Shown here: piece by piece, positions 41,887 to 58,914 of the stretch
How positions within the stretch are numbered: position 1 is the first letter of the stretch
How the letters are laid out: each line of letters starts with the position of its first letter
Source of the DNA: Gemmatimonadota bacterium
GTDB taxonomy: Bacteria > JAAXHH01
DNA length: 62,606 bases
Direction: 5' to 3'
Assembly: GCA_026706345.1 (NCBI GenBank)
Contig: JAPOYX010000037.1
Span: forward strand, 1 to 62,606
Program-made: the position numbers and the translations under genes
The notes under the pieces: generated by a model
The model's database searches: none
The model's input: only the letters and a program-made list of their open reading frames with translations
Told to the model about the DNA's origin: nothing

Positions 41887-41903
41887 ATAGGGAAACACCC
41901 TAT
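41887..41903 (+). promoter_or_regulatory. Palindromic operator site 1, upstream of regulator 2
   Basis: A perfect inverted repeat, ATAGGG-AAACA-CCCTAT. A -10-like TAAAAT follows at 41926-41931, with 22 bases between. If that box is real, the palindrome is centred near -43 and overlaps the -35 position, the normal place for an activator of the class II type. Confidence 0.75.
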
Positions 41904-41987
41904 GGATGTTCTTCTTTTTCAGTGTTAAAATTGAGCAAGAGCCGGATGATCCATATAACGACCTCAAGAGGAGATGACGAACATCAT

Positions 41988-42620
41988 ATGATACACGTAG
42001 TGATCGCAGACGATCATCATCTGATTCGGCAGGGACTTCGGGATTTGCTCTCGAAAGAACCCGATATACAAATAGTCGCCGAGGCCACGGACGGCCGCGA
42101 CGTGATTGATGTCGTGCATCGAGTCCGGACGGACGTCATCGTGATGGACGTTGAGATGCCCGGTATCGGTGGCATCGAAGCGACGAGGAGGATACGCGCG
42201 TCGTTTTCCGAGATCCAGGTGGTCATGATGTCGATGCATTCAGATCCCGATCTGATCCGGAAAGCGCTGGACAACGGCGCCAGGGGCTACGTGCTCAAGA
42301 AATCAGCCGGCGAAGAGCTGGTCGAAGCGATACGTACCGTTTGCAGGGGCGTCACTTACCAATCCCGGGCCATGGATCATGCCGATTACCTGTATGGGGA
42401 GTACCCCCACGGCACACCGCCCCAGCTTACTCCCCGGGAGCGCGAAATCCTTCGACTTATCGTATCGGGGCGGTCCAATCCCCAGATAGCCGAAACCATG
42501 CGAATCAGTATAAAAACCGTGCAAAATCATCGCATCAATCTGATGGCGAAACTGAACACGCACAGTCTTCCCGATCTGATCCGAACGGCGGTCAAACTCG
42601 GTCTGATCAATCTGGAATAA
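41988..42620 (+). CDS. NarL/FixJ-family response regulator 2
   Basis: This 210-residue paralogue of regulator 1 has acidic pocket Asp8/Asp9, phosphoacceptor Asp54 (VIVMDVEMPG), a conserved Lys in VLKKSAG, and a C-terminal LuxR helix-turn-helix (LTPREREILRLIVSGRSNPQIAETMRIS). The frame is open from 41922, but the ATG at 41988 gives the normal receiver start MIHVVIADDH; GAGGAG lies rather far, about 14 bases upstream. It has its own operator-type promoter (site 1), so it is probably made only when the system is on, which would give feedback amplification. Confidence 0.9.
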   Translation: MIHVVIADDHHLIRQGLRDLLSKEPDIQIVAEATDGRDVIDVVHRVRTDVIVMDVEMPGIGGIEATRRIRASFSEIQVVMMSMHSDPDLIRKALDNGARGYVLKKSAGEELVEAIRTVCRGVTYQSRAMDHADYLYGEYPHGTPPQLTPREREILRLIVSGRSNPQIAETMRISIKTVQNHRINLMAKLNTHSLPDLIRTAVKLGLINLE

Positions 42621-42705: not shown

Positions 42706-42722
42706 ATAGGGATACACCCTAT
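42706..42722 (+). promoter_or_regulatory. Palindromic operator site 2, upstream of the S41/precursor/maturase run
   Basis: A perfect inverted repeat, ATAGGG-ATACA-CCCTAT, followed by AGATA as at site 3. The -10 box is less clear than at the other sites; the best match, TATGGG at 42751-42756, stands about 6 bases further out than expected. The S41 gene starts 121 bases downstream. Confidence 0.7.
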
Positions 42723-42843
42723 AGATATCCGGTCCGGCTTTCCGTTCCTTTATGGGTAGATCGTTCCAGTGTTCCATCTCTTCATGTCGGTGCTATTACA
42801 AAAGGCCCTTTCGGTATACAACTCTGAGCAAGGAAGGTTCGAA

Positions 42844-44865
42844 ATGAACGCCGGAGCAACTTCAAACAGGATGACAACCTGGTGTTTGCCGGTTCTGCTG
42901 TCTTTGCTTGCTATGGTTCTGATCGATTACCACGATGGAATGTGTGCCGAATGGAAAGTGGTAACGAAGAGATACGAGCCATCCGAAGTACTGTACGCCA
43001 TTCAAGACGAGGGCCTTGAGAAACATACCAGGTTCTATTTCCCGGAATACAGAATGGACGACAAGGCGCTCTACTCAGGTTACAGACCGATAGAACAAGG
43101 TGAGGATGTCGAAAAGCGCAGTGAGGCGGCGGATTTCCGGCATGTATGGAAAACCCGCTTCAGCAAACCGATAGTGCCGGGTGAAACCGTGTTCTTCTAC
43201 AGTCGGATTTACGTTGAGAACGTAGACCGATACAGCATATCCCTGCACCTGTCGAAGAGTGATGTCTGGATTGAGAAGATGGTCAATATTCCCTTTACCG
43301 GCTATCAACTCCCTTTGAACAGTCCGCTGTCATCCTGGCGTGGCAAGATCGATAACGTGGAAACGAGCCAAGATACCAGGGAAGCTGATACAGTCGATAA
43401 GATGCTCATTAAGGTCTATCCTAAAGGAGATCAGTATGACTTCGTAATCGGTGATCTTAAAATCTACAAAATGGAATGGGTAGACAAGAACTACACGCAT
43501 CCGCTTTTCAGACCAATCCTGACAAATTACACCGAGGGTGCGCTTGATTTTGACTACAAACCTCCGGGGGTTCCCCTGGCATCTTCGTCCGTCGCCTGGC
43601 GATCGTTAGTCGGCCATAACGGCGATCCGTATTACATAGAACCGGCTGCAAGTTCAACGGCGACTTCGTACAGTCCCGTAGACCTACGTGAACTCAAAAC
43701 GACCATGTTTCGACAGTTCATGGACAAGTATCCCTTCTATAAAGAGCGCGGTTTAGAGAAATCGGACCTGCTTGCCCGGTTCAACAGTTTCGCGACCGTT
43801 CCCATCTCTCACAGAGAGGCGTTCAACGATAGTCTGATCGCCCTGGTATCGACTTACAGCGATCCGCACTTCAACGCATCGAAGATCGGTGCCAGGCGAT
43901 CTTCGGGGCGAAGATCGACACCTCCCGTTGTCTTCTATGAAATCCTTGGAGAGGTTCGCGTTGCGGCGGTTTTCGCAACAGAATTGAAGGACGAGATCAA
44001 GCCAGGTATGCGACTGTTCAGCGTTCAGGATCAGCCAATACAGGATGTCATTTCAGAGTTGTCTGAACGATTCCGTGGATCGGCATACAGCCGGAGACAA
44101 AAAGCAATATCATCCATACTGAGATACCTGCCGGATTCCTCGGAAATCGCAATCGGTTTAGCGTCGGAAGATGAAAATGGGGAGATGGTAGAAGTACGGC
44201 TTAACACAGGCGGGGATTACAGAATTCCGCCGAATTTCGTACCGAGACATGGAGAGTTCAGGGTACTTGATGGAGATATAGCTTACTTCAGAATCAGCCG
44301 ATGGTCATTAGATGTCTGGACTCGATTCTCGAATCACATGTCCGACTTTAAGAAAGCAAATGGACTGATTATCGATCTGCGTTCCAATCCCGGTGGAGAA
44401 GCCACCAGCGTTATACGGATTATCTCCTTATTCATAGATGAACCAACCCTCTACAGCCGGGAGTACACTCCAGCCAATGGAAGAACCGAAGACCTGATCA
44501 TCCGTCCAAAGGAACAGTACCATATCGACCTGCCTGTCGCGATTCTGGGAAACGGACAGACTACCTGTGCAAGCGAGGATTTCATAGATACCATGCAATA
44601 TGCTAAAAAAGCGGCCTTTGTTGCGAATCACAAAACAGCAGGTTCCGTATCTGCCATGATTCGCGTTGTGTTTCCTGACGGACTGATGGTAGGAGTAAAT
44701 TCCTGGTCGAACAGGCTCAGTCCTGCGGGAAGACATATCGAAGGGCGGGGGATCACCCCCGACATCCGGGTGGATATCAACACGGTAGATGATCTAGCCC
44801 ACCATAAAGATAAGATGCTCAATGTAGCGAAGAGTTTCCTGCAACAAAATACAGATACCTATTGA
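42844..44865 (+). CDS. Exported S41-family (C-terminal processing/tricorn-like) peptidase homologue
   Basis: This 673-residue protein has a signal peptide at about residues 11-35. Residues 335-500 may hold a PDZ-like part, and the S41 core follows (LIIDLRSNPGGEATSVIRI, then GNGQTTCASEDF, then ANHKTAGSVS). In S41 enzymes the nucleophile is the Ser three residues before Glu in SxxE; here that position is Cys (codon TGT). The lysine of the Ser/Lys dyad in CtpA types is also not at its usual place, though the tricorn/IRBP-like subgroup does without it. It may be a cysteine-type or an inactive relative. The frame is open to 42769, but AAGGAAGG stands 7 bases before the ATG at 42844. It is the first gene after site 2 and lies 73 bases ahead of the precursor. 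Confidence 0.78.
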   Translation: MNAGATSNRMTTWCLPVLLSLLAMVLIDYHDGMCAEWKVVTKRYEPSEVLYAIQDEGLEKHTRFYFPEYRMDDKALYSGYRPIEQGEDVEKRSEAADFRHVWKTRFSKPIVPGETVFFYSRIYVENVDRYSISLHLSKSDVWIEKMVNIPFTGYQLPLNSPLSSWRGKIDNVETSQDTREADTVDKMLIKVYPKGDQYDFVIGDLKIYKMEWVDKNYTHPLFRPILTNYTEGALDFDYKPPGVPLASSSVAWRSLVGHNGDPYYIEPAASSTATSYSPVDLRELKTTMFRQFMDKYPFYKERGLEKSDLLARFNSFATVPISHREAFNDSLIALVSTYSDPHFNASKIGARRSSGRRSTPPVVFYEILGEVRVAAVFATELKDEIKPGMRLFSVQDQPIQDVISELSERFRGSAYSRRQKAISSILRYLPDSSEIAIGLASEDENGEMVEVRLNTGGDYRIPPNFVPRHGEFRVLDGDIAYFRISRWSLDVWTRFSNHMSDFKKANGLIIDLRSNPGGEATSVIRIISLFIDEPTLYSREYTPANGRTEDLIIRPKEQYHIDLPVAILGNGQTTCASEDFIDTMQYAKKAAFVANHKTAGSVSAMIRVVFPDGLMVGVNSWSNRLSPAGRHIEGRGITPDIRVDINTVDDLAHHKDKMLNVAKSFLQQNTDTY

Positions 44866-44876
44866 TTTAAAAACTC

Positions 44877-45135
44877 AGTGTCGATGCTGCTATAAGCCAC
44901 CTCGCTGTGTTACGTTAATCAGATGAAAGGAGACAGCCATGAAAGTCCTGATCAAGCCCGTGGATCTTGACTTTGAAGATGATCAAGATCAAGACGTAGT
45001 CGCATATTGCGACAAAGCCTGTGGTATCAACAATTGTGATAAAACTTGTGGTATTAATAATGGAGACGATGAAGTGGATGATATCCTGTTCTGACTCAAT
45101 GGTACGCATGCTTTAGACATAGCAGCATCGACACT
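44877..45135. repeat. Perfect 17-base inverted repeat enclosing the precursor gene
   Basis: AGTGTCGATGCTGCTAT at 44877-44893 is exactly reverse-complementary to 45119-45135. The arms begin 12 bases after the S41 stop and end 57 bases before the maturase start, with the small precursor gene in the 225-base loop. In RNA this would be a stable closing stem; in DNA it could also be the ends of a small mobile cassette. Confidence 0.92.
44939..45094 (+). CDS. Candidate RiPP precursor peptide, 51 residues, tandem CDKxCGINN
   Basis: AAAGGAG stands 6-7 bases before the ATG, the best ribosome site of the cluster. The peptide begins MKVLIKPVDLDF and has an acidic leader-like part (1-22, rich in Asp/Glu/Gln). 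A core follows with two near-identical nine-residue repeats, CDKACGINN (24-32) and CDKTCGINN (33-41), giving Cys24, 28, 33 and 37. The tail is acidic (GDDEVDDILF). A small, Cys-repeat peptide 98 bases upstream of a radical SAM/SPASM enzyme is the standard layout of sactipeptide/ranthipeptide-type systems, but this repeat is not one I recognise. It could be cut and cross-linked through its Cys or Asn residues. The function of the product is not known. Confidence 0.78.
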   Translation: MKVLIKPVDLDFEDDQDQDVVAYCDKACGINNCDKTCGINNGDDEVDDILF

Positions 45136-45192
45136 AATCTATTGATAATCCACCTACATATCTGAAACCAGTCGTCAAAGTGGAGAATGGTC

Positions 45193-46698
45193 ATGAACAG
45201 TGTAATCTACAAAACGAGTTACTACAATTTCTATGTACCTGTACCGGAAAACGACTGTTATCTGCTCTACAATTCCCGGACGAACGGACTGACTGAAATG
45301 GAATCAGAAGTAGTTCGGCAGTTAATACATTGGTCAAAGCTGGACAAGATTCCTTCCAAGGAGTTGAAATGCCTCAGCCCGGATATCTTGGACAGTTTGA
45401 TCGAGTCTTCTTATGTCGTGAATGCGTGTGTTGACGAAAAAGAACTCATCCATAAGCGTATTGTTCGACAACGGCGGGCATCCTACAAAAACGCTTCTTT
45501 CGAGTTGACGATCACTCCGACGTTGTCATGCAACATGGGCTGCCCATATTGTTTCGAAGGTCCCAAGCCGTACCGCAATTTCATGAGTGAAGAAACCATA
45601 GATGACATCGTTCAGTTTATGGAAAGAGAAATCCAGAATAGCGATATCGTCGAGTCATTCAGAAAAGTCAGAGTTACATGGTATGGCGGCGAACCTCTGC
45701 TCAGACCTGAAGTAATAGAGAATCTCTCTTCGAAAATACTGGTGCTTCAGGAGAAGTATGATCTCGAATACGACGCCAACTGTATTACTAACGGTCTATT
45801 ATTAACACCGGAGAACTGGGCCCTATTGGAACGGGCGAAGGTCTCGTCCGTTCAGGTAACCATTGACGGATACAAAGATACGCACGATTCGCTTAGGCCG
45901 CTTCTGCCTATGTACGGGTCTGAGGATCAGGGCAATTACGAAAGGATCCTCGATAATCTTTCAGCCCTGAAACAGTCATCGTCTATCAGAGTGAACATCA
46001 GAATCAACTGTGATAAAGTCATAATGAAACACATGGAACTGTTCCTCGATGATTTGGAAAACAGGGGTATCTGGCCGCAACGACATGATCAGTTTAAAAT
46101 GTATATCGCCCATAAGAAACCTCCACCTGACGGTTTGCCAGTTGACGAGGTGTCTGATTACTATTCGTCACGAGAATTTGGAAAACAGGTTGATCATTTC
46201 AGTTCGTTAAGACGAGATAGATACAACCATTGGGCTAGAAAGAATCAAAAGCAACCGGCCCGAACCAGAATGAATCTTCCGAAACCAGCCGCGTTTCTCT
46301 GTGGTTCCGCGTCACTACCCTATAGCATCGTGTTGGATTCAGCCGGCTACGTTCATCAGTGTTGGGAACACGTCAATCACAATACGACGCGCGCTCATCA
46401 CATCAGTGAACCCTACGATCTGCAGCATCCCCGAAGAAGCCTGTTCGTACACTGGGATAAATTCATGCAGAATCCCATGTGTCGAGATTGCAAGATCCTC
46501 CCTGTTTGCGATATGGCCTGTCCCCATCTCGATCCGCCGAACGCCTGCCCCGATATCAGGTGGTCCTTACCGGATCGTTTGAAAAGTCAGTATCTGATGA
46601 CGAAAGAGACGCCGGAGCAAATCCAGTCATTCGAGGAGTTCGATAACGATCTTCAGAACGCCTTCTCACTCTCTGTTAAATGCGATGAGATTAACTGA
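45193..46698 (+). CDS. Radical SAM/SPASM peptide maturase
   Basis: This 501-residue enzyme has a short N-terminal region with the YNFYVPVP...LLYNSRTNGL pattern common in peptide maturases and a radical SAM core with CNMGCPYC (CxxxCxxC, Cys113, 117 and 120 from this start). The GGEPLL motif, a SPASM domain with Cys in FLCGSAS...HQCWE, and CRDCKILPVCDMACP near the C-terminus complete the auxiliary cluster ligands. It should use SAM to make a thioether or carbon-carbon link in the upstream peptide. The frame begins at ATG 45187, but GGAG ends just before that codon; ATG 45193 has correct spacing, so I start there. Confidence 0.9.
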   Translation: MNSVIYKTSYYNFYVPVPENDCYLLYNSRTNGLTEMESEVVRQLIHWSKLDKIPSKELKCLSPDILDSLIESSYVVNACVDEKELIHKRIVRQRRASYKNASFELTITPTLSCNMGCPYCFEGPKPYRNFMSEETIDDIVQFMEREIQNSDIVESFRKVRVTWYGGEPLLRPEVIENLSSKILVLQEKYDLEYDANCITNGLLLTPENWALLERAKVSSVQVTIDGYKDTHDSLRPLLPMYGSEDQGNYERILDNLSALKQSSSIRVNIRINCDKVIMKHMELFLDDLENRGIWPQRHDQFKMYIAHKKPPPDGLPVDEVSDYYSSREFGKQVDHFSSLRRDRYNHWARKNQKQPARTRMNLPKPAAFLCGSASLPYSIVLDSAGYVHQCWEHVNHNTTRAHHISEPYDLQHPRRSLFVHWDKFMQNPMCRDCKILPVCDMACPHLDPPNACPDIRWSLPDRLKSQYLMTKETPEQIQSFEEFDNDLQNAFSLSVKCDEIN

Positions 46699-46717
46699 CT
46701 GTTTGAGGAAACGAATC

Positions 46718-47320
46718 ATGAGCGATCACACCAGAGAAGAGATGATCGATGTCGTGAAGGAAGGGCGCAAAACCGTTTTCGCCTGGCGAGAAAGGAATCC
46801 GTTCGAAAGAATGAATCTATGCCATGCCCAACTTCCGGGAATAGATCTATCCCTCGCAAATTTGAGGGATTTCGACCTCGTCGGCGCTGATCTCTCCATG
46901 GCAAAACTCGTTCGCGCATACCTGAGCGGAGCCGATTTGCGTGATGCAAAACTGGAAAACGCCGATCTGCGTTTCGCCGCCCTGGGATGGTCGAATCTGC
47001 ATGGCGCCGATTTGAAACAGGCAAACCTTACCGGCGCCTACCCATACAAGGCCGAGTTTGCATCGGCAGACCTGCGCGGAACCGATTTTACGAACGCCTA
47101 TTGCAATGAGGCGGATTTCAGCAACGCCGTCTTAGGTGAGACCAACTTCTCATCGACAAATCTGACGAACGCAATCGGCCTGGAATCTTGCACCTACAGT
47201 GCCCCCGTCTTTGCCGACAGCGTGACGCTGTTGAAATCCGGGAGCCTGCCCGTGGTTTTCCTGGAACACTGCGTATATCTGCCGGAGAAAGACCACGACA
47301 TGTCAAACCGACTAAACTGA
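46718..47320 (+). CDS. Pentapeptide-repeat protein
   Basis: This 200-residue protein has about 20 consecutive pentapeptide units of the A(D/N)LxX type (for instance GADLSMAKLV, ENADLRFAALG, GADLKQANLTG) from about residue 35 to 150, forming a right-handed beta-helix. The N-terminal 30 and C-terminal 45 residues are not repeats. Similar proteins protect DNA gyrase, act as self-resistance factors or serve as scaffolds; here immunity to, or folding of, the peptide product is possible but unproven. AGGAA stands 7 bases before the ATG at 46718. The gene follows the maturase closely. Confidence 0.85.
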   Translation: MSDHTREEMIDVVKEGRKTVFAWRERNPFERMNLCHAQLPGIDLSLANLRDFDLVGADLSMAKLVRAYLSGADLRDAKLENADLRFAALGWSNLHGADLKQANLTGAYPYKAEFASADLRGTDFTNAYCNEADFSNAVLGETNFSSTNLTNAIGLESCTYSAPVFADSVTLLKSGSLPVVFLEHCVYLPEKDHDMSNRLN

Positions 47321-47335
47321 CGGGACCTGGTTATC

Positions 47336-49228
47336 ATGCGAATCGCGATCATCGACAGTGGCATCGATATCAATCATAAAAGGCTGCGAGGTTGTCGCTG
47401 TGCGGGAGTCTCACTCGTATTGAAATCATCCGGCGAATTGGCTTTTACGGATGAGTACGACGACTCGTTGGGACACGGGACCAGTTTAGCCGCGATAGTA
47501 CATCGAATTACTCCATCGGCGGAATTGGTTGCCGTCAGGATATTCCACCAGGAACTGGCAGCCACGGAAAAGCTGCTTTGTGAATCGCTCAGCTGGTGCC
47601 TGGACAACGACATAGACATCATCAATCTTTCGCTAGGGGTCCAAACGAGTTCCCCATCCAAGGAGCTATACCAGTTATGTGCCGACGCGCATGAACGAAA
47701 CGTCGTTATCATCTCCGCGGCCCACACGGATCTTTCCTCTGAATCGTATCCGGCTTACTTCCCTACGGTATTGGGTGTTACCTGGGGCAAAGTCGGCAGT
47801 GACACCGAATATGGTTTCATCCCTGATTCGCCGATTGAGTTCATCGCAAGAGGGACGCTCCAGCGAATCGCCTGGAAAAACGGCGGGTTTACCATATCCA
47901 GCGGCACGAGTCTCGCATGCGCGTACTTTACCGGCATAACCGCAAAGACTATGCAGTCTTTCAACCATACGCCGTCTATCGACGCCTTGAAAACCAGGCT
48001 CAAGGAAGGCGCTGCGCCCGGCCTTACGCCTTTGCAGTTCGGCGGAAAAGCATATAACGACAACGTTCCCACGATCAAAAGCGACGGCGTCAAGACAGAC
48101 TTGGAGGGCGTCTTCAAACGACGTTTTTCAGATTGGATTGGAAACCTCGCCGTGTTCCCCGCCAGCGAGAAAGAGATGAACGCATTTTCAGATTTTCCGG
48201 AGTATTGTATCTCTCCCGTTGTTCAGTATTTCGACTATCCCCGGAACCTTGCTTACACCTCACCGGGCAAGGCAGCACCGAATGGTGGTGTAACGCGCTC
48301 GGACCGATTCGATCGATTCGACACGCTTGTTACGGGTTACTTCACAGATCAGCTTTTCGAAACCAATATCAAGTATGGTTCAGAACTCCTGACCAGGTCG
48401 TTGTCTTGCGGCAAGAACGTCTTCAGCTACGATCGCAGACTACACGACCATATAGAGCAATACCGAACAGAACAGGGATACAGCGGTGCGGTCTATGTCC
48501 CGGAAGTAACGGAAGAACACTATGAGGAGCTACTTCCCTTTCGCTATCTGGGATCCGTCGATGTCCCGATGCTATGCGTTTTGGGAACCAGCAATCGTCA
48601 GGGGAAGTTCACCGCTCAACTGCGCATAAAAGGGATTCTCGAGCGAGAAGGATACAGGATCGGCTTCCTATCGACGGAACCCCAGGGCGAACTTTTTGGC
48701 GCAACGCACAGTTTTCCCTACGGCTACAGGGGGACGGTCTCGCTGGATAAGAAAAAATGGTCTTACTATCTCAGAATCCTCACCAGAGGCATGCAGGAGT
48801 ACCTGGAACCTCACCTCATCTTAACCGGAACGCAGGGGACTTCCATACCCAGGGGCAAAAGCAGGAAACTCCTGGGAAACGAAACGGATACGCTGGATTA
48901 CGTGATTGGCGTCAACCCGGATGCGTTCGTGTGCGCAATAAACCCGCAGGATACGATCGGCTACATAAAAGACACCTGCGAGACCTTCAGGATCTACTGC
49001 GGCGCCGAACCGGTCTTCTTCGTCATGACTCCGTGGATGCGGGAGTTTCAGAAACGGAAGAACGGTCGTACGATGGCCCGTCATCGATTTCTCAGCGATG
49101 AAGAGAAACACACCCAAATTAGGTATTTTCAGGAGGAAATCGGAAAGCCCGTTTTCGATATCATGGATAAGGCCAATGACGGGGCGATCCTTGAACTCAT
49201 TCAGGGGTTCTTTTCAAAACGTCCGTGA
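47336..49228 (+). CDS. Subtilisin-like (S8) peptidase fused to a DUF1611-like P-loop domain
   Basis: This 630-residue protein starts with an S8 domain (about 1-235) with the triad Asp7 (IIDSGID), His47 (GHGTS) and Ser192 (SGTSLAC), but without signal or pro-region, so it is cytoplasmic. The oxyanion-hole Asn (normally AAGN) is replaced in SAAHTD. Residues about 290-400 resemble the Rossmann-like N-part, and about 405-630 the P-loop part, of the DUF1611 family (GTSNRQGKFT at 417-426; LILTGTQGTSIP; VNPDAFVCAINP), a family that includes the acyltransferase-like DgcN. I know no described enzyme with this pairing. It is a good candidate to cut the precursor leader inside the cell. Confidence 0.8.
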   Translation: MRIAIIDSGIDINHKRLRGCRCAGVSLVLKSSGELAFTDEYDDSLGHGTSLAAIVHRITPSAELVAVRIFHQELAATEKLLCESLSWCLDNDIDIINLSLGVQTSSPSKELYQLCADAHERNVVIISAAHTDLSSESYPAYFPTVLGVTWGKVGSDTEYGFIPDSPIEFIARGTLQRIAWKNGGFTISSGTSLACAYFTGITAKTMQSFNHTPSIDALKTRLKEGAAPGLTPLQFGGKAYNDNVPTIKSDGVKTDLEGVFKRRFSDWIGNLAVFPASEKEMNAFSDFPEYCISPVVQYFDYPRNLAYTSPGKAAPNGGVTRSDRFDRFDTLVTGYFTDQLFETNIKYGSELLTRSLSCGKNVFSYDRRLHDHIEQYRTEQGYSGAVYVPEVTEEHYEELLPFRYLGSVDVPMLCVLGTSNRQGKFTAQLRIKGILEREGYRIGFLSTEPQGELFGATHSFPYGYRGTVSLDKKKWSYYLRILTRGMQEYLEPHLILTGTQGTSIPRGKSRKLLGNETDTLDYVIGVNPDAFVCAINPQDTIGYIKDTCETFRIYCGAEPVFFVMTPWMREFQKRKNGRTMARHRFLSDEEKHTQIRYFQEEIGKPVFDIMDKANDGAILELIQGFFSKRP

Positions 49229-49241
49229 GAGGGGAACGCAA

Positions 49242-49508
49242 ATGACCACCGAGGCCGACATCAGAAAAACGCTGCATGACTTGACGAGCGATTTCGTTGC
49301 AAGAGAAATCAGTACTGAAGCGGATGAGTCGTACGCGTTGCAAGAAATTGCCAGTGAATCCATGCAGGCCATAGAATACATCATGCTGCTTGAAAGCGAA
49401 TTCGAAATGGAGTTTGACGATAACGAGGTCAATGTCGAGTTCTTTTCGAACCTGGATAACATCGTGGCCCTTATCGCCCAGCAGTCAGAGATACCCAAGT
49501 CGACCTGA
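49242..49508 (+). CDS. Acyl-carrier-protein-like small protein
   Basis: This 88-residue helical acidic protein has an ACP signature in its second third: IASESMQAIEYIMLLES, with Ser40 in the place of the phosphopantetheine Ser of the usual DSL. The following EFEMEFDDNEV is the typical helix II region. The frame is open upstream to 49098, but GGGGA lies 7 bases before the ATG at 49242. Next to a peptide maturase such a carrier could hold an acyl or aminoacyl group for transfer onto the product, perhaps by the BtrH-like protein at 55026. No ligase that loads it is visible in the cluster. Confidence 0.82.
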   Translation: MTTEADIRKTLHDLTSDFVAREISTEADESYALQEIASESMQAIEYIMLLESEFEMEFDDNEVNVEFFSNLDNIVALIAQQSEIPKST

Positions 49509-49543
49509 TCAGGAAGTGCCTTGAAGGCCTTCAATCTGATCAG
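49505..49543. other. Nested palindromes between the carrier and permease genes
   Basis: CTGATCAG occurs at 49505-49512 and 49536-49543, flanking a perfect 14-base palindrome, TTGAAGGCCTTCAA (49521-49534). It overlaps the end of the carrier gene and lies 30 bases ahead of the permease start. A regulator site or RNA processing hairpin is possible; no T run follows. Confidence 0.5.
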
Positions 49544-49572
49544 ACCGATGGAGGACACCGGAGGTACCCGAG

Positions 49573-51987
49573 ATGATACGCAACTATATTACGACCGCGG
49601 TAAGGAACCTTCTAAAGTACAAAGGATATTCCGTAATCAACATGATCTGCCTTGCCATCGGACTGGCGGGGTGTATTCTGATGTCCCTGTATATTCAATA
49701 CGAATTCAGCTACGATGCATATCATGAAAAAAAGGATCGCATCTACCGGTTGGAGAATCACTCCGTAACGTCCGGCAGGGAGCAAAAAATAGCTATTTCT
49801 CCCGCTCCATGGGGTCCGGCCCTGCTTGCCGATTATCCGGGCATAGAATCCATGGCCAGACTGAAAGTCGCACTGGCCCGCCATACCGTAACATCTGGTG
49901 ATAAAGCATTTTACGCGGAAGCCGTCCTCTTCGCTGATTCCACTCTGTTCGATATCTTCACGTTCCCTCTGGTCAAAGGGAACCCCCGCACGGCCTTGAC
50001 GGCCCCCTTTACCGCGGTCATTTCGGAATCCTTCGCCAGGACACATTTCGGAGAAGCGGACCCGATTGGCGTGCCGCTTAACGTAGCCGGTCTTTTTTCC
50101 GTGACCATAACGGGCATCATGAGCGACGTTCCCTTGAACTCGCATATGCGATTCGATTTTCTGATCTCTTACGCCACGTACACCTCGTTAGGTTGGGGTG
50201 GACCTGATACCTTCCAGAACAAGGGCTTAAGCAGCGAAGTCCGTACATACCTCCTATTGAAAGAAGAGTATTCCGTCCGGGAACTGGAAGCACAAATGCC
50301 GCGGTTCATTGAAAGATACCTTGGGGACCGGATGCGTTCATTCGGAATCAAAGTAAACCCGTTTCTTCGACCAATTGAAGATATCCATCTCTACAGCCGA
50401 GATATAGAGTGGAGCTCGGGACTGCTGACTAAGACCGGAGGCGGGGATATTCGTTCCATCTATATCGCTATTTCTCTCGCGGTCTTCATCCTGGTCATCG
50501 CCTGTATCAACTTCATCAACCTGACCACGGCCAGGGCGGACCGACGCGCACGGGAAGTAGGCATGCGCAAAGTCCTCGGCGGCAGCCGGACGCACATCGT
50601 GCTTCAATTCATTGGCGAATCTGTATTGTTGAGTTTGTTCGCTCTGGGTTTGGCTATTGTATTGGTCCAAATGCTTCTGCCCTTTTTCAACGATCTGTTC
50701 GGCAGGGGAATCACCATGGGATTTTCGTTGGGCCTGGCCTTGATGCTGTCGGGGATGGTCTTGCTCGTCGGGATGCTGTCGGGCGCCTATCCCGCATACG
50801 TCCTTTCATCCTTTCGTCCGACGGACATGCTGCAAGGATCGAAGAAAACCGGAACCGCCAGGGCGATCTTCCGCAGCATCCTGGTAGTGTTTCAATTCGT
50901 GATCGCTATCATTATGATTTCCGGCGCCGGGGTGATCTACGATCAGCTCGACTACATGCTGGACAAGGATCCGGGATACGATGCGGAAGGCGTCGTCATC
51001 GTCGGGATGCCGTTGGGCGAGGGGGCCATTCAAAAGTACGAATTTTTCAGAGAAAACGCCCTGAGCTATCCTGACGTCCTGTCGGTGAGCCGTCTTGCGA
51101 ATCTACCGGATAACCTGCCTACGGGTGGAGTAAGGACAGCGAACGCACCGGAGGATCAAGCGACAAGATTCCAGATGGTCCATGGCGGTTACGATCTCCA
51201 TAACGTTATGGGCTTTGAAGTGGTTCACGGGCGTTATTTCTCTCGGGACAGGTCCACCGACGCCGATGCGTGCGTGATCAACGAGACGGCGGTTCGTACC
51301 CTCGGATGGGATGATCCAGTCGGTAAATCGCTTATCAACCCGTATTCGCAGTCTCAAACGGTGATCGGAGTCGTAAGAGATTTCCATGCGCGATCATTTC
51401 ATCACGCGGCAGCACCAATGTGGATTGGTCCTCCTGATCAGAGTCAGCAATACGCATATATCGCCATTAAACTCCGGGTTGAAAATACCGCCACCGCCCT
51501 CGGCGTTCTCGGGGATCAATGGCGGCAGGCATACCCCGATCAACCCGAGATGGAGTATTCGTTCCTGAGCGATTTGGTAGAAGAACAATATAGGGGAGAT
51601 CGGCTTCTTGGGACGATCTTCACCGCCGGTACCGTGGTATCGATAGTGATCGCCTGCCTGGGACTCCTGGGCCTGTCCGCCTTCATGGTCCAGAGTCGTA
51701 CTAAGGAGATAGGGGTTCGTAAGGTCCTGGGATCATCGGTCGGGCAGGTCGTTATTCTCCTGTACCGGGAATTCACGCTGTACGTCCTCATTGCGTGTGT
51801 CGTCGGTATCCCGTTGATCTACTATATGGCGGATGTGTGGCTGCGCGACTTCGCCTATCGCATCGAACCGAATCCGTGGACTTTCATCTTCACCGGCGTC
51901 GTCGTGATGCTGATCACCTGGTTTACCGTGGGATTCCAGACCGTGAAAGCGGCAGAGACGAACCCGGTTGAAGTGCTCAGGGGATAG
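49573..51987 (+). CDS. FtsX/MacB-type ABC transporter permease 1
   Basis: This 804-residue permease has an N-terminal membrane helix (about 20-42), a periplasmic MacB core domain, three helices (about 290-420), a second periplasmic domain and three final helices (about 680-800), so it is the duplicated FtsX form usual in FCB bacteria. The start MIRNYITTAVRNLLKYKGYS is conserved with permease 2. GGAGG at 49560-49564 sits 8 bases before the ATG. No ATPase is adjacent; it may share the ATPase and adaptor at 59-61 kb with permease 2. Confidence 0.9.
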   Translation: MIRNYITTAVRNLLKYKGYSVINMICLAIGLAGCILMSLYIQYEFSYDAYHEKKDRIYRLENHSVTSGREQKIAISPAPWGPALLADYPGIESMARLKVALARHTVTSGDKAFYAEAVLFADSTLFDIFTFPLVKGNPRTALTAPFTAVISESFARTHFGEADPIGVPLNVAGLFSVTITGIMSDVPLNSHMRFDFLISYATYTSLGWGGPDTFQNKGLSSEVRTYLLLKEEYSVRELEAQMPRFIERYLGDRMRSFGIKVNPFLRPIEDIHLYSRDIEWSSGLLTKTGGGDIRSIYIAISLAVFILVIACINFINLTTARADRRAREVGMRKVLGGSRTHIVLQFIGESVLLSLFALGLAIVLVQMLLPFFNDLFGRGITMGFSLGLALMLSGMVLLVGMLSGAYPAYVLSSFRPTDMLQGSKKTGTARAIFRSILVVFQFVIAIIMISGAGVIYDQLDYMLDKDPGYDAEGVVIVGMPLGEGAIQKYEFFRENALSYPDVLSVSRLANLPDNLPTGGVRTANAPEDQATRFQMVHGGYDLHNVMGFEVVHGRYFSRDRSTDADACVINETAVRTLGWDDPVGKSLINPYSQSQTVIGVVRDFHARSFHHAAAPMWIGPPDQSQQYAYIAIKLRVENTATALGVLGDQWRQAYPDQPEMEYSFLSDLVEEQYRGDRLLGTIFTAGTVVSIVIACLGLLGLSAFMVQSRTKEIGVRKVLGSSVGQVVILLYREFTLYVLIACVVGIPLIYYMADVWLRDFAYRIEPNPWTFIFTGVVVMLITWFTVGFQTVKAAETNPVEVLRG

Positions 51988-52067
51988 TGTGCACGATATG
52001 AACGCGTCATCGAACGCATCCTGAAACTTCTGGGGAGCCTTGGTTTATCTGGAAGGGGGTTTGTGCC

Positions 52068-53246
52068 ATGAACATCCTGATGGTTTCATTAGGGACGCCT
52101 GGATTCGTCTATCCATCGATGGGTCTTGCCCTGAAACTTGAAGAGAAAGGCCATACGGTTCATTTCGCCACAGATTCGCGGTTTTACAATATTTTGTCGA
52201 AACAGGGTATAAAGAACGTTTACGGGAAAGATAAGACGTATCGGATAAACTCCTGGTGGGACCTGCTGACGTTGCGCAGGCAGATACGGCATCTCGAGTC
52301 GATCATTGAGAGCAATTCTGTCGACGTTATGGTTACCCACATTTTATCACTCGGCGCTGTCTGCATCAGTAGAAAGCACAACATACCCATCGCCGTGACG
52401 GGGCTTTCGGCCTATATCTGGCCGACAACCGAACCCTGCCTGGATCTCATCTCGGAGACCGAAGCAAGAAACCGCCAATGGAATTACGATGAAATGATGC
52501 GAGTATACAACAAACTGCTGACGTCGCTACAACTGCCAACCTGCACGACAGAGTATGAGGAATCGCCATTACTCGGAGATCTGTTTCTCATTCAGAGCGT
52601 ACCGGAATTCGAGCCGTATCTCCATCTTCTTCCCGGGAAGGTTCACTGCGTAGGGAACTGTCAATGGGAACCCCATGTCGATGACCACGAGGTCGATACC
52701 TGGATCGAGGAATCACGAGATCTCGATATGCCGATAATATACGTACAGATAGGCAGAGCATTCGAAAAAGAGAGCTTCTGGCCATATCTGACGGATGTTT
52801 TCGGAGGACAGTCCGTGCGAATCGCGGGATCTGCCGGACGATCGGATGAAGACGAATTCGATATCCCTCAAAACTTCTTCGTCAGGGACCATGTTCCTCA
52901 GGAAAGGGTACTCGGACACGCCCGTGCCGTGATTTCCAATGGACATACCACGTCAGTGCTGGGCGCCCTGTCACATGGGCTTCCGATGCTGTTGTTTCCA
53001 AACGGCAGCGGGACATACGAAATTGCCCTGCGCTGTCGGTCCGCAGGGGTAGCCATCGGGTTATCGACCAAGAAAATCAATGCCGGCGTGGTGGAAGCGA
53101 GTTTCCACAAGATTATGGATGACGAGTTCAAGGCGAATGCGAACTATTTTCAGACTTTGTATAGCAGATTCAATGGTCGGGACTATGCCGCAGGACTCAT
53201 CGAAGAACTGGCAAATACCCAAAAAGCGGTCCTCCGGGAATACTAG
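52068..53246 (+). CDS. GT1-family glycosyltransferase (UGT/MGT type)
   Basis: This 392-residue GT-B enzyme starts MNILMVSLGTPGFVYPSMGLA and has the MGT pattern: MLPGKV-like mid-region, then NFFVRDHVPQERVLGHARAVISNGHTTSVLGALSHGLPMLLFP, the donor-binding block of GT1 enzymes. A GAAGGGGG ribosome site precedes the ATG. Such enzymes put sugars on natural products, so a glycosylated peptide is a possible product. The acceptor is unknown. Confidence 0.88.
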   Translation: MNILMVSLGTPGFVYPSMGLALKLEEKGHTVHFATDSRFYNILSKQGIKNVYGKDKTYRINSWWDLLTLRRQIRHLESIIESNSVDVMVTHILSLGAVCISRKHNIPIAVTGLSAYIWPTTEPCLDLISETEARNRQWNYDEMMRVYNKLLTSLQLPTCTTEYEESPLLGDLFLIQSVPEFEPYLHLLPGKVHCVGNCQWEPHVDDHEVDTWIEESRDLDMPIIYVQIGRAFEKESFWPYLTDVFGGQSVRIAGSAGRSDEDEFDIPQNFFVRDHVPQERVLGHARAVISNGHTTSVLGALSHGLPMLLFPNGSGTYEIALRCRSAGVAIGLSTKKINAGVVEASFHKIMDDEFKANANYFQTLYSRFNGRDYAAGLIEELANTQKAVLREY

Positions 53247-53261
53247 AACAGGTAATTGACC

Positions 53262-54950
53262 ATGCTCCGCGATATCGGAAACAAACTCAAACTGTACGGC
53301 GTTGTCGAATCGCTCCACAACAACGCGTGGCAAATCGCCGTATTTGTCGTTTTGTCAGTTGTTTCGGTCGTCTTGAACATTGCCAAGCCGATCGTTTTCT
53401 CCAGGATCATCGATACCGGTTTGATCGAACAAGACTGGGACAACGTATTGTACTACTGTATTGCCTTTTCGGTCATTGCGGTTCTGATAAGCGTCAATTC
53501 ACTGGGTTACGGAATGATCACCTCGCTTGTTTCGAATCGTTTTGTCGCGACCATCAAGAAATCGCTCATCAACCGTATCTACCTGCTGGATTATCACTTC
53601 TTCAACAAGACGAGCGGCGGGGACATTCTGACCCGATTGAAAAGCGATACCGATAACATCCGTAATTTCTTCATGGCTGTACTCAATAACAGCCTGGTCA
53701 GTTTCCTGGGTTTTCTTTCCGCCATGATATATATCGGCGTAGTGGAATGGAAGATGTTGATCCCGGGATTTGCGGTTGTGCCGTTTCTGATCTGGCGCAC
53801 TCATGCTTTTCGGGACCGTATACATGCGGCCAATACGCGCGTATTCGAATCGGATTCCCATTCTACCGAACAGATCGCATCGGGTATTAACAACATCGTG
53901 TATCTGAGGCAAATCGGCCTTCATGGCTGGTCTCTTCGCAAGATCACGGCTTCATTCGACCGATTTCAGGCCGACAGCATAAACCGGGACAGATGGAATC
54001 TGGTCAGCGAGACGAGTGTTTCGCTCATCATGGCCGCCGGCTATATCGTAACCGTGGGTTATGGCGGCTGGTTGGTGGTAGATGATCAACTCACCATCGG
54101 CAGCTTGCTTGCCTTTCTGACGCTCAGGCAGCGTTTTACGGCGCCGATGCAATTCGTAAGCCAGACGTACCACGGTTTCATCAACGCCAGGGCAGCTTTC
54201 GAACGCCTATGGGACTTCTATGCCAATCCTATTGAAGTGGGAATCGATCGTGGCGCGGAAGAACCGGACCCGGATTTTGAAGAACTTTCCGTTGATGACG
54301 TGGAATTCCGTTATCACGAGGAAGGGAACGGGCTCGAAGGCACCGCCACGTTTATCCGGGGATGGAACGAAGTTCACGGAAGCAATGGTTCGGGGAAGAC
54401 CACATTGATTCGATTGTTGATGAAGATACTGACTCCTCAGAAAGGACGCGTAGCGGTCGATGGCCGGGATATAGCCCATATCAACAACCACGCGTGGCGA
54501 AAGAACATAAGTATCGTTCCCCAACATACTTATCTGTTCAACGAATCCGTTCGCGAAAACATCCGCCTGTTCGATGATCGGATAAACGATGATATGATAT
54601 GCGAAGTGCTGGGCAAGTTGAACGCCAAGGACGACTTGTTCGATTGCGTTCAGGGTCTGGACGCCGAGGTTGTTGAAGGCGGTAGGAATCTATCCGGAGG
54701 ACAACGCCAGAAAATCGCAATAGCGAGAGCATTGTTGAGAAACACGCCTGTTTACATTCTGGATGAACCGTTTGTACATATCGATAAGGAAACCAAAGAT
54801 CGTATAAGGGATTATCTGCGTGACATACTCCGTGACAGAATAGTCATATACATCTCACATGATGATTTTAGCGACTTGAACGCAGATAACAGAATAGATA
54901 TCTGGAATGGCGGGATAAGGACAATGTCAGCGGTCGGAGAGTCTGCGTGA
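53262..54950 (+). CDS. ABC exporter with fused membrane and ATPase domains
   Basis: This 562-residue half transporter has a six-helix membrane domain (about 20-320) and an ATPase domain (about 335-562) with Walker A GSNGSGKTT, signature NLSGGQRQKIAIARA, Walker B VYILDEP and the SHDD His loop. It lacks an N-terminal C39 peptidase domain, so it would export a peptide already cut or cut elsewhere. The frame begins with TTG at 53256, but ATG 53262 has the better spacing to AGG. It lies 15 bases after the glycosyltransferase. Confidence 0.9.
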   Translation: MLRDIGNKLKLYGVVESLHNNAWQIAVFVVLSVVSVVLNIAKPIVFSRIIDTGLIEQDWDNVLYYCIAFSVIAVLISVNSLGYGMITSLVSNRFVATIKKSLINRIYLLDYHFFNKTSGGDILTRLKSDTDNIRNFFMAVLNNSLVSFLGFLSAMIYIGVVEWKMLIPGFAVVPFLIWRTHAFRDRIHAANTRVFESDSHSTEQIASGINNIVYLRQIGLHGWSLRKITASFDRFQADSINRDRWNLVSETSVSLIMAAGYIVTVGYGGWLVVDDQLTIGSLLAFLTLRQRFTAPMQFVSQTYHGFINARAAFERLWDFYANPIEVGIDRGAEEPDPDFEELSVDDVEFRYHEEGNGLEGTATFIRGWNEVHGSNGSGKTTLIRLLMKILTPQKGRVAVDGRDIAHINNHAWRKNISIVPQHTYLFNESVRENIRLFDDRINDDMICEVLGKLNAKDDLFDCVQGLDAEVVEGGRNLSGGQRQKIAIARALLRNTPVYILDEPFVHIDKETKDRIRDYLRDILRDRIVIYISHDDFSDLNADNRIDIWNGGIRTMSAVGESA

Positions 54951-55025
54951 TCTCCCATTCGTTGACGGGTATTTGCATTCCGAAGAAGCGGAATAGTATG
55001 GTCACAGCCGTCTCAGGATAAAAAG

Positions 55026-56132
55026 ATGAAAAAGAAGATTCCCGTTCAAGAGCCTCCCGTAACGTCTTACCTGTTCAGCATGTATCCGTTGTCAATCATG
55101 CGTCCCCACATGGCGTTTACACCGTGGATATGCAGTAACTACATCCAACTTTACCATTACAAAGATCACTTTCTGAGATTCTACGTCAATCCCTTGTCAC
55201 CGAAAGGAGGAAAGAAGAACTACTATTTTATTACCTGTCCGTTCCTGGACATTCAAAGGCTTGAACAAAGAATCATTCTGCGGACATATGATGACGTTGT
55301 CCAGTTCGTCATTTCGAGTATTGAAGAAGACTGCCATGTACAGTTGGACGTTGATTACTACTACCTACCTTCTACAGAGCCATACAGGAGATTTCATTTT
55401 ATGCATGAACTGCTGGTCTCCGGCTATGACGACACCAACCAGACATTTGAGATATCCGGTTACAATGAGTCGTGGAATTACCATATCGCAACGATCACGT
55501 TTGATGAACTTTACCAGGCCGTGAATACCGTCAATATCAATGCCCCGTATGGCAACCTTTATCAGGTCGACCAACTGGAAGAAAGCCCCATGGTCTTTCT
55601 ATATAGAATTGATAATCGAAAAACATATGAAATCAATATCCGGCAAATATGCGAATTGCTCTCGGATTATCTGGAATCAGTGAATACGGCTGAAAAGTAT
55701 CGCATGCTGTTTGTTCCTGAAGAGGAAGGGCTTTGGGGAGTATCAGTGTATTCGTACCTGACAGAATCACTGGATCGGGGTCGAAATCTGGAAACGCTGA
55801 CTATTCCTCTGCGCGTCCTATGGGAACACAAAAAGGTAATGACGGAACGCATCAGGTATCTGCAAGAACAGGGATACATCGATTCTGGCAATCGTCTCTT
55901 CGAAGAGTATTCGGAGATAACAAGAATGGCGAACCACGCAAGGTGGCTCTTTCTTAAATGCCTCAAGAAGCCGAAAGCATCATTAGTAAGGAGCGCCATG
56001 GCTATCTTGCAGGAAACAGCAGAAAGTGAGTATCACCTCCTGGTTGAACTTCACAATACTTTGAGCGGCTCAATCGAGAGCGCCGACATCGGCTCAAAGG
56101 TGATCGAACAAGATGTAATCAATTTGAAGTAG
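55026..56132 (+). CDS. BtrH-like protein with C39-peptidase-like N-terminal domain
   Basis: This 368-residue protein resembles the BtrH N-terminal family, where the butirosin enzyme BtrH moves an acyl group from a carrier protein to an aminoglycoside. The visible match is moderate: an N-terminal segment with a single Cys (WICSNYIQLY), then the family's VDYYYLPSTEPYRRFHFMHE followed by LLVSGYDD, where the His before Glu-Leu-Leu is the likely catalytic partner, and ISGYNESW. The C-terminal helical part (about 200-368) is not recognisable. With the acyl-carrier-like protein at 49242 it suggests an acyl transfer step. AGGAT stands 7 bases before the ATG. Confidence 0.55.
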   Translation: MKKKIPVQEPPVTSYLFSMYPLSIMRPHMAFTPWICSNYIQLYHYKDHFLRFYVNPLSPKGGKKNYYFITCPFLDIQRLEQRIILRTYDDVVQFVISSIEEDCHVQLDVDYYYLPSTEPYRRFHFMHELLVSGYDDTNQTFEISGYNESWNYHIATITFDELYQAVNTVNINAPYGNLYQVDQLEESPMVFLYRIDNRKTYEINIRQICELLSDYLESVNTAEKYRMLFVPEEEGLWGVSVYSYLTESLDRGRNLETLTIPLRVLWEHKKVMTERIRYLQEQGYIDSGNRLFEEYSEITRMANHARWLFLKCLKKPKASLVRSAMAILQETAESEYHLLVELHNTLSGSIESADIGSKVIEQDVINLK

Positions 56133-56219: not shown

Positions 56220-56236
56220 ATAGGGAATCACCCTAT
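56220..56236 (+). promoter_or_regulatory. Palindromic operator site 3, upstream of permease 2
   Basis: A perfect inverted repeat, ATAGGG-AATCA-CCCTAT, with AGATA following. TATTAT at 56260-56265 is a -10-like box 23 bases after the palindrome, close to the spacing at sites 1 and 4. The predicted start of transcription is near 56272. Confidence 0.75.
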
Positions 56237-56469: not shown

Positions 56470-58914
56470 ATGATACGCAACTACATTACGACAGCGATTC
56501 GGAATCTTTTAAAGCACAAAGGGTATTCCCTGGTCAACTTAATCGGTCTCGCCCTTGGCCTGGCGGGATGCATCCTGATGCTGCTCTACATTCGGTACGA
56601 AACCAGTTACGACGATTTTCATTTGAAGAAGGACCGCTTGTATCGGATTGAAGTCAATCATCTTCATGACGGCCGCGAGAACAAATTCACTACGACTCCA
56701 TCGGCCTGGGCCCCCGTTCTACTTGCCGACTACCCTTCCATAGAAAACTTGACCAGGCTACGGCCCTTGTTGGAACAGCAGTCGGTACAACTTGAAGACA
56801 GGTCGGTACGCGGCAAAGCGTCTTTCTTTGCCGATTCGACCCTGTTCGACGTCTTCACCCTGCCCCTGGTCAGAGGCACGCCCGCCACGGCACTGACCCG
56901 GCCTCATACGGTCGTCATATCGGAATCCATGGCGAATACATGCTTTGGCGAGACGGATCCCATAGATGCTCTGATCACCCTGAACCTGGAAAAATTGGGA
57001 AACCCGTTGCCGCTGACCGTAACGGGCGTCGCCCGTGACCTTCCGGAGAATTCGCATGTGCACTTCGATTTCCTGATCTCCTACGTCACGCTTGAGTCAT
57101 TGGGTTGGGGCGAGCCCGCCAACATGCAGGATCATGGTGGCAATTACACCATCTATACCTACCTCCTATTGCGAGAAGGGTATTCCGCCCTGGAACTGGA
57201 CGAGCAACTGCCCGGTTTCGTCGAAAGATATCGCGGAGATGTGAATCGGGCATTCGGCCTCGTAACGACTCCTTATCTGCGGCCTGTCGGGGATATACAC
57301 CTGTACACCTACGATATGACACGAGGAGGCGGCACCGGGGATATCCGTACCGTCTACGTCGCCTTCCTTCTGGCGGCCTTCATACTGGTGCTCGCCTGCG
57401 CCAACTTCATCAATCTGACTACGGCCAGGTCGATGAGTCGCGCGAGTGAAGTGGGTATGCGGAAGGTGCTGGGCGGCACGCGGGCTCACGCCATACTGCA
57501 ATTCATAGGCGAATCAGTGTTGTTGACTATGTTTGCGCTGGGATTGTCCATCGTGCTGCTTCAGGTCCTGCTGCCCGCTATCAACGATCTGTTCAACCAG
57601 CACATCAACCTGGAGTTTACGTCGGACACGATGCTGATGCTCGCGGGTGTGGTCCTGCTCGTCGGGATACTCGCGGGTACCTATCCCGCTTTCGTCATTT
57701 CGTCCTTCCAGCCGACGGCCGTGCTGCGAGGTTCGTCTGAATCCGGGGCCACGGGCGCGCTCTTCCGAAGAATACTCATCGTGTTTCAGTTTACCGTCTC
57801 GGTCGTCCTGATCATCGGCACGTGGACGATCTCGGACCAGCTTGACTACATGCTGAGTGAAGACCTGGGGTTTGAGGAAGATGGCGTCGTCCTCATCGAT
57901 ATGCCGGAGCGCGCCTATGAAGTATTCAGAGACAACGCACTCAGATATCCCGATATCCTGGCGATGGACCGGTCGTCAACGATATTTGGAGACACGTATA
58001 ATACCGGCGGAGTATGGCCGGAAGGCGTTCCGATGGACCAGCAAACGGAATTCCAGATTTTCAGCGCAGACTACGGGCTTCCCGATGTACTGGGGCTTGA
58101 GTTGGTTGAAGGGCGTTTTTTCTCCCGAGAACGATCTGCGGACGCCGGTGCGTGCCTGATCAACGAGACGGCGGTACGCGTCCTGGGTTTGGAAGACCTC
58201 GTCGGTACGACACTGCTGGGTCCAAGTGCCATGGTCCGCAATGGGTCAATTGTGCCGGTGCCGTGCGAGGTGATCGGAGTCTTACGGGACTTCAACATGG
58301 AATCATTGCGCCAGGAGATTCTTCCCATGAGGATCGCATTGGGTCAATTCGGTCAACAATACAGTGATGCTCATCGATACGGTTCTATTGTCGTCAAAAT
58401 CAACAGCAGCAACGAGGCAAACGCGCTCCGCATCCTGAGGGAACAGTGGAACAAGGTTTATCCCGATCTTCCGGAGCCGGAGTTCGCGTTACTGGAAGAT
58501 AAGGTGGCCGGGCTGTATGAAGACGATCGCATACTCCGGACCGTTTTCACGGCAGGGTCCACCGTATCGATTCTGATCGCCTGCCTCGGTCTCCTGGGCC
58601 TGTCCGCCTTCATGGTCCAGCGCCGCATCAGGGAGATAGGTATTCGTAAAGCCCTGGGGGCCACGGTCGGCCAGATCGTTGTTCTACTGTACCGGGAATT
58701 CACGCTGTACGTCCTCATCGCGTGGGTTGTCGGCGTCCCGTTGATCTACTATATGGCGGATGTGTGGCTGAGCGACTTCGCCTATCGCATCGAACCAAGT
58801 CCGTTGACGTTCATCTTCACCGGCGTCGTCGTGATGCTGATAACCTGGTTTACCGTGGGATTCCAGACCGTGAAAGCGGCAGAGACGAACCCGGTTGAAG
58901 TGCTCAGGGGATAA
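56470..58914 (+). CDS. FtsX/MacB-type ABC transporter permease 2
   Basis: This 814-residue paralogue of permease 1 has the same two-part FtsX layout and N-terminus (MIRNYITTAIRNLLKHKGYS). The last 220 or so bases are much more alike between the two genes than the rest; the encoded C-terminal 30 residues are the same, which suggests gene conversion. It has its own operator-type promoter (site 3) and is followed by the adaptor and ATPase genes, so it is the likely core of the MacAB-like pump. GGAGATA precedes the ATG at about 9 bases. Confidence 0.9.
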   Translation: MIRNYITTAIRNLLKHKGYSLVNLIGLALGLAGCILMLLYIRYETSYDDFHLKKDRLYRIEVNHLHDGRENKFTTTPSAWAPVLLADYPSIENLTRLRPLLEQQSVQLEDRSVRGKASFFADSTLFDVFTLPLVRGTPATALTRPHTVVISESMANTCFGETDPIDALITLNLEKLGNPLPLTVTGVARDLPENSHVHFDFLISYVTLESLGWGEPANMQDHGGNYTIYTYLLLREGYSALELDEQLPGFVERYRGDVNRAFGLVTTPYLRPVGDIHLYTYDMTRGGGTGDIRTVYVAFLLAAFILVLACANFINLTTARSMSRASEVGMRKVLGGTRAHAILQFIGESVLLTMFALGLSIVLLQVLLPAINDLFNQHINLEFTSDTMLMLAGVVLLVGILAGTYPAFVISSFQPTAVLRGSSESGATGALFRRILIVFQFTVSVVLIIGTWTISDQLDYMLSEDLGFEEDGVVLIDMPERAYEVFRDNALRYPDILAMDRSSTIFGDTYNTGGVWPEGVPMDQQTEFQIFSADYGLPDVLGLELVEGRFFSRERSADAGACLINETAVRVLGLEDLVGTTLLGPSAMVRNGSIVPVPCEVIGVLRDFNMESLRQEILPMRIALGQFGQQYSDAHRYGSIVVKINSSNEANALRILREQWNKVYPDLPEPEFALLEDKVAGLYEDDRILRTVFTAGSTVSILIACLGLLGLSAFMVQRRIREIGIRKALGATVGQIVVLLYREFTLYVLIAWVVGVPLIYYMADVWLSDFAYRIEPSPLTFIFTGVVVMLITWFTVGFQTVKAAETNPVEVLRG

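Follow-up and report, generated by a model that had tools for sequence, protein, structure and literature searches.

A predicted peptide cassette of the DD(I/V)LF kind, with a carrier protein and an S8 protease fusion, at a two-component regulator locus of a Gemmatimonadota bacterium

The C-terminal tail DD(I/V)LF is the signature of precursors for a group of orphan ribosomally synthesised and post-translationally modified peptides (RiPPs). Work on two of these, FlmA and OhkA, has dealt with their arginases. According to that study, neither the mature products nor the core and cleavage sites are known; the published examples come from Bacteroidota and were found via their association with peptide arginases (PMC12703449). 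Clusters of the CLI_3235 type combine a radical S-adenosylmethionine (SAM) enzyme with a TIGR04066 protein, the acyl carrier protein (ACP)-related TIGR04069, a subtilase and an ATP-binding cassette (ABC) transporter. They have been described in Roseburia (PMC4573289) and in Paenibacillus SacP23 (PMC10731318). The role of the ACP-like and TIGR04066 proteins in such clusters is unexplained so far. In the qhp system, the radical SAM enzyme QhpD makes Cys-to-Asp/Glu thioethers, QhpE then cuts off the leader and QhpF mediates export (PMC7876137). Here, we analysed a contig of 62,606 nucleotides from a Gemmatimonadota bacterium (JAAXHH01; GenBank assembly GCA_026706345.1, contig JAPOYX010000037.1), the whole of which is called the window. 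It carries a candidate RiPP cassette that resembles each of these systems in part.

Our preferred reading, to which we give a probability of about 0.75, is that of an exchangeable cassette of the DD(I/V)LF or FlmA-FlmE kind. Its peptide would be cross-linked, freed of its leader by an S8 protease and exported. We consider the best explanation to be that the cassette was plugged into the regulon of a resident two-component system. Proteins encoded in the window were translated, then scanned against Pfam and NCBIfam. The cassette spans positions 42769–56132, with all genes on the + strand. We take it to be a real gene cluster, predicted to make and export a small modified Cys-rich peptide. Its genes are as follows.

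42769–44865 (probable start 42844), + strand: S41 peptidase with an N-terminal hydrophobic segment (PF03572, 92.5 bits)
44939–45094, + strand: precursor peptide of 51 residues, with leader MKVLIKP, a four-Cys core and the tail DDILF
45187–46698, + strand: radical SAM/SPASM peptide maturase, FlmE/OhkG-like (NF052473, 409 bits; cut-off 500)
46685–47320, + strand: pentapeptide repeat protein (Pfam/NCBIfam)
47336–49228, + strand: fusion of a QhpE-like S8 subtilase with a P-loop domain of the TIGR04066/DUF1611 type
49242–49508, + strand: ACP-like protein with conserved Ser40 (weak models)
49573–51987, + strand: FtsX/MacB-type permease within the cassette (ADOP 280 bits and DarB 97 bits, each below its cut-off)
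52068–53246, + strand: GT1 (MGT-like) glycosyltransferase (Pfam/NCBIfam)
53256–54950, + strand: ABC exporter without a peptidase domain (Pfam/NCBIfam)
55026–56132, + strand: BtrH-like protein (papain-like/acyltransferase family, weak profile match)

An earlier interpretation of the same DNA, made from its letters alone (the sequence-only reading), had described most of this layout. Every feature that it named was found, in the order listed; the S41 protease and the FtsX/MacB-type permease had been missed. As it claimed, the exporter has no C39 domain. The BtrH-like protein was also found, but with a weak match only.

The predicted small Cys peptide gene does adjoin the radical SAM/SPASM maturase gene. 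Its product, MKVLIKPVDLDFEDDQDQDVVAYCDKACGINNCDKTCGINNGDDEVDDILF, contains no Arg and the sequence AAAGGAG lies upstream. We compared four loci: the window, L001 (recorded as Gemmatimonadetes bacterium SB0665_bin_8 and located by a scan of genome contigs), L008 and L010 (genomes G011 and G004, respectively, of the same genus; maturase 48% identical). Each of the three related loci has a small open reading frame at the matching position, between the S41 and maturase genes, with the same leader and tail. In the alignment of the four precursors, the MKVLIKP start is invariant. Four Cys lie between the ends, with differing spacing and surrounding residues. The tail is DDILF in the window and DDVLF in L010, both exact examples of the DD(I/V)LF motif; other relatives end in DEILF and GDILF. 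Within the window, just 1 of 1525 stop-to-stop segments of at least 20 residues has a [DE][IV]LF ending. The sequence-only reading had envisaged a system built around a CDKxCGINN peptide. The alignment contradicts this: leader and tail are conserved, and the repeat is one of the forms that the variable core takes. CDKxCGINN was thus rejected as a defining repeat.

Codon changes between the window and L001 are typical of a constrained leader and tail with a free core. Synonymous and non-synonymous changes number 10 and 5 in the leader, 3 and 1 in the tail, and 8.6 and 15.4 in the core, respectively. Nucleotide identity between these loci is 0.82–0.97 over the S41 gene and mostly 0.89–0.96 in the stretch that runs from the maturase gene's end through the ACP gene. 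Only where the precursor and the first part of the maturase gene lie (window positions 44800–45400) does it fall to 0.63. Such a dip between loci that are otherwise 82–97% identical suggests exchange, or recombination, of the precursor module.

A profile built from the four precursors matched once, and once only, in every genome that encodes the maturase and S8 fusion (four genomes), and not at all in the remaining eight of the 12 genomes in the genus set. Precursor, maturase and S8 fusion are confined to the same 4 of these 12, which bears out the proposal of a RiPP-type cassette whose genes travel together. No locus in this set keeps the rest of the cassette without the peptide, an arrangement by which the sequence-only reading would have counted itself refuted. 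These data also bear on the idea of a chance open reading frame beside an orphan radical SAM gene, with an unrelated efflux and regulatory locus as its neighbourhood. Two-component and FtsX/HlyD genes can indeed occur where the cassette is absent. However, conservation in four loci, constraint on leader and tail, and a variable core that stays in frame all contradict such an origin, as does co-occurrence of the precursor with the maturase and S8 fusion. We regard it as extremely improbable and consider the precursor to be a real gene, beyond chance.

The maturase contains the Pfam domains Radical_SAM and SPASM (38.6 bits, cut-off 27) and scores above the cut-off of TIGR04085. Its CxxxCxxC motif (C115, C119 and C122) is invariant in the four relatives, as are all seven SPASM Cys residues (C372, C392, C432, C435, C441, C445 and C454). 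The best of 62 families is FlmE/OhkG (NF052473), with 409 bits over positions 2–468 of 481, short of the cut-off of 500. TIGR04463 (228 bits), Clo7bot (187 bits) and CefB (134 bits) follow. The score against TIGR04068 is 68 bits (cut-off 500). For the precursor, the FlmA family is likewise the best match. The FlmA model weakly matches two of the four precursors, those of the window (14.2 bits) and L001 (17.2 bits), without reaching its cut-off of 30. Since curated cut-offs are missed although the precursor has the family motif, we did not file the cassette as a plain family member. It would function in a similar way to the DD(I/V)LF or FlmA-FlmE family, and is probably a distant branch of it. 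The sequence-only reading had not recognised the combination of genes. Yet the tail is the defining feature of orphan RiPPs already described, and the set of radical SAM enzyme, TIGR04066 protein, ACP-related protein, subtilase and ABC transporter has also been published.

Wider searches returned little. FlmE/OhkG was found in none of about 370 genomes sampled outside the genus, nor in three further phyla chosen as possible Bacteroidota for their T9SS tails, but neither search matched a positive control. The peptide arginase PF12640 was found in none of the four cassette genomes, by a search that matched nowhere, controls included. Literature searches found nothing on FlmE/OhkG, Clo7bot, BtrH in RiPPs, or Owenweeksia.

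The S8 domain occupies residues 3–222 of the fusion protein. Its Asp-His-Ser triad (D7, H47 and S192) is invariant in the four loci, as is the segment GTSNRQGKFT. The best match is QhpE, with 124 bits (cut-off 165). The P-loop part matches DUF1611_C (29.2 bits, cut-off 25) and aligns with positions 86–355 of 361 in TIGR04066. The latter score, 48 bits against a cut-off of 200, marks it as a distant relative. A sequence search of the PDB with this domain gave no useful match. The fusion is conserved end to end in the four loci and was found in 4 of 384 sampled genomes, and no others. By analogy with DgcN, TIGR04066/DUF1611 proteins might be acyltransferases; no supporting paper was found and the idea was not used as evidence.

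Operons resembling qhp were met in three further loci (L058–L060), and the set of radical SAM, ABC and S8 genes was read directly in L058. The window's own genome has a separate QhpE-like S8 gene (L061; contig C101 of G000, positions 290–1249); the contig is short and part of it is masked as N. Resemblance of both the S8 domain and the gene set to the qhp operon could mean that the small protein serves enzyme or cofactor maturation. It would then be a cross-linked subunit or cofactor carrier, like QhpC, rather than a secreted product. Such a role is very unlikely: no gene for a dehydrogenase or other catalytic subunit is nearby, the core differs greatly among close relatives, and glycosyltransferases and two exporters are present.

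We next consider the accessory proteins, starting with the carrier protein. General ACP models match it weakly (23 bits) and TIGR04069 is not among its matches. Ser40, the expected phosphopantetheine carrier, is invariant across the loci. BtrH itself is an ACP:aminoglycoside acyltransferase, in a papain-like group near the C39 peptidases (PMC10318531). The BtrH-like proteins score 26.9 (window), 27.2 (L001) and 23.7 bits (L010) against PF14399, missing the cut-off of 29.7, and a PDB sequence search gave no useful match. H127 is kept in every protein compared. Among the nearest outside relatives, that in L021 lies on a plasmid of Paenibacillus, beside nonribosomal peptide synthetase (NRPS) genes, and that in L022 belongs to a cluster of ACPs with an adenylating enzyme. 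Because these relatives adjoin NRPS or ACP systems, we favour a carrier protein as partner of the BtrH-like protein.

The same cassette could also operate without acylation. The BtrH-like protein would then be a papain- or C39-like peptidase serving the ABC exporter, and the ACP a scaffold or peptide carrier. This fits the grouping of BtrH_N near C39 peptidases (PMC10318531), the position of the BtrH gene directly after the exporter gene (with a four-base overlap in L010) and a cassette without an acyl-loading enzyme. However, leader removal is already provided for by the S8 domain, the closest relatives outside adjoin carrier-protein systems and Ser40 is invariant. On balance, we judge this peptidase role, the chief rival reading, unlikely.

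The S8 fusion, ACP, ABC exporter, BtrH-like and S41 genes are kept together with the precursor and maturase genes; other accessory genes differ between lineages. L008 and L010 have no GT1 gene; a GT4 gene takes its place. Their BtrH-like proteins (L008 4176–6500, L010 10977–13295) carry an extra C-terminal extension of about 390 residues. By motif reading only, it has the GT-A-like motifs DNG and CDGD, and it matched nothing in Pfam, NCBIfam or the PDB. Two lineages thus hold different glycosyltransferases in one cassette, which speaks for a glycosylated product. The pentapeptide repeat protein, whose gene is present in L001 and absent from L008 and L010, may protect the producer from its own product. 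In the S41 protein, the Ser of CASE and a D-x-H motif are kept in relatives; the FGKG lysine is absent.

The genes flanking the cassette encode a two-component system and an exporter, with repeated copies of a palindrome.

38467–41142, + strand: resident sensor histidine kinase (PDZ and HisKA_3), kept in G007 (L042, 91%) and G002 (L041, 88%)
41139–41792, + strand: LuxR-type response regulator 1
41887–41903: palindrome ATAGGGAAACACCCTAT, a putative operator in front of the gene for response regulator 2
41922–42620, + strand: LuxR-type response regulator 2
42706–42722: palindrome ATAGGGATACACCCTAT before the cassette
56220–56236: palindrome ATAGGGAATCACCCTAT before FtsX2, one mismatch
56470–58914, + strand: FtsX/MacB-type permease (FtsX2), resident exporter
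58948–58964: palindrome GTAGGGAAACACCCTAT before the adaptor gene, one mismatch
59004–60374, + strand: periplasmic adaptor, DarC-like (182 bits, cut-off 450)
60511–61188, + strand: ABC ATPase, DarD-like (280 bits, cut-off 375)

The palindrome ATAGGGNNACACCCTAT occurs at four sites in the window (before response regulator 2, the cassette, FtsX2 and the adaptor gene), compared with 0.04 expected by chance. It is also found at the corresponding places in L001, L008, L010, L041 and L042. The copy in front of the cassette is in the same spot in L001 (one mismatch), in L008 and in the cassette-less genome G007. Position 42706, where the sequence-only reading began its region, is the first base of that copy. 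Both G007 and G002 keep the histidine kinase without the cassette. The G007 locus comprises elongation factor G, the kinase, both regulators, FtsX and the adaptor, with no cassette genes; an ABC/ABC-2 pair occupies the cassette position. Since the palindrome marks two-component/FtsX loci of cassette-less genomes too, the regulon is likely to be genus-wide. The simplest reading is one regulon into which the cassette has been inserted, with the response regulators probably in control; we infer the link to the regulators.

FtsX genes also vary in position. The window has two FtsX permeases and L001 has one (14229–16787), which sits in the place of the first and is 99% identical to the second. Hence, FtsX permeases appear to have been shuffled around the cassette. 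At the same regulator locus in G002 (L041; contig C4, 12300–16900), an FtsX gene is inserted between the two response regulators, so this site looks like a hot spot of gene exchange.

A pathway can be proposed on this basis. The response regulators would turn the regulon on. The maturase would then cross-link the core Cys residues, most likely as thioethers, and the cytoplasmic S8 domain would cut off the leader, like QhpE ahead of export by QhpF. The best analogy for the order of cross-linking, leader removal and export is QhpD, QhpE and QhpF, since these act in that sequence. Next, the BtrH-like protein might move an ACP-borne acyl group to the peptide or its sugar, in which the P-loop domain perhaps takes part, and the glycosyltransferase would attach the sugar. 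Export would fall to the ABC exporter, which lacks a peptidase domain, and to the MacB-like system, and the S41 protease would trim the tail outside the cytoplasm. We see glycosylation of the product as an even bet. Acylation is a more tentative suggestion.

Several points weigh against this account. Matches for the maturase, precursor, ACP, BtrH-like and TIGR04066-type proteins are all below curated cut-offs. All four loci come from one genus and so are not fully independent. In the BtrH-like proteins, C36 is kept in the four cassette members only, not in the two Paenibacillus relatives, and no ACP-loading gene is among the cassette genes. Structure predictions were too poor to use for both the BtrH-like protein (mean predicted local distance difference test score, pLDDT, 34) and the S8 fusion (mean pLDDT 45). 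It is doubtful, on our estimate, that the locus represents a new structural class: a radical SAM-cross-linked Cys peptide, acylated by ACP and BtrH and glycosylated, with the fusion coupling leader removal to the acyl step. If true, this would be the first explained role of the carrier protein for the DD(I/V)LF and CLI_3235-type families.

Like the DD(I/V)LF RiPPs FlmA and OhkA (NF052472/NF052473; PMC12703449), the cassette has a short precursor with the same tail and a maturase best modelled by FlmE/OhkG. Unlike these, it scores under both cut-offs, has a four-Cys core and no Arg in the precursor, and its host is not of the Bacteroidota. With CLI_3235/CcpM clusters it shares a Cys-rich precursor, a radical SAM enzyme, a TIGR04066-type P-loop domain, an ACP-related protein, an S8 protease and an ABC exporter. 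At the level of family models, the subtilase and ABC exporter agree with that set, whereas TIGR04068, TIGR04066 and TIGR04069 do not. The maturase is of another subfamily, the S8 and TIGR04066 parts are in one protein, and S41, glycosyltransferase, BtrH-like and pentapeptide genes are added. Thus, the locus joins a DD(I/V)LF tail with a CLI_3235-type protein set, linking both families. As an unusually well-equipped variant, it could help to show what they make. The BtrH-like protein would be a natural partner for the carrier protein. With this locus, acylation becomes a hypothesis open to direct test, and four naturally occurring forms of the precursor and a cassette-less locus can be compared.

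As in QhpD-QhpE-QhpF, one small Cys-rich peptide would be acted on by a radical SAM enzyme, by a cytoplasmic S8 protease that cuts off the leader, and by an ABC exporter. Unlike Qhp, the cassette has no dehydrogenase, its maturase belongs to another subfamily and its S8 domain scores under the QhpE cut-off. The FtsX permease, adaptor and ATPase that flank the cassette and bear its palindrome are like darobactin DarBCD and MacB; unlike DarBCD, all score under cut-offs, and they reside in a cassette-less genome too. Clo7bot, TIGR04463 and CefB are the next-best families for the maturase, but their precursors differ (many Clo7bot peptides in tandem; a long peptide with Cys at every fifth position) and the loci read lack this accessory set. 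What is new here is the S8-TIGR04066 fusion, the GT1 or GT4 glycosyltransferase, the BtrH-like and S41 proteins, and the tie, by a palindrome, to a two-component system and a MacB-like exporter.

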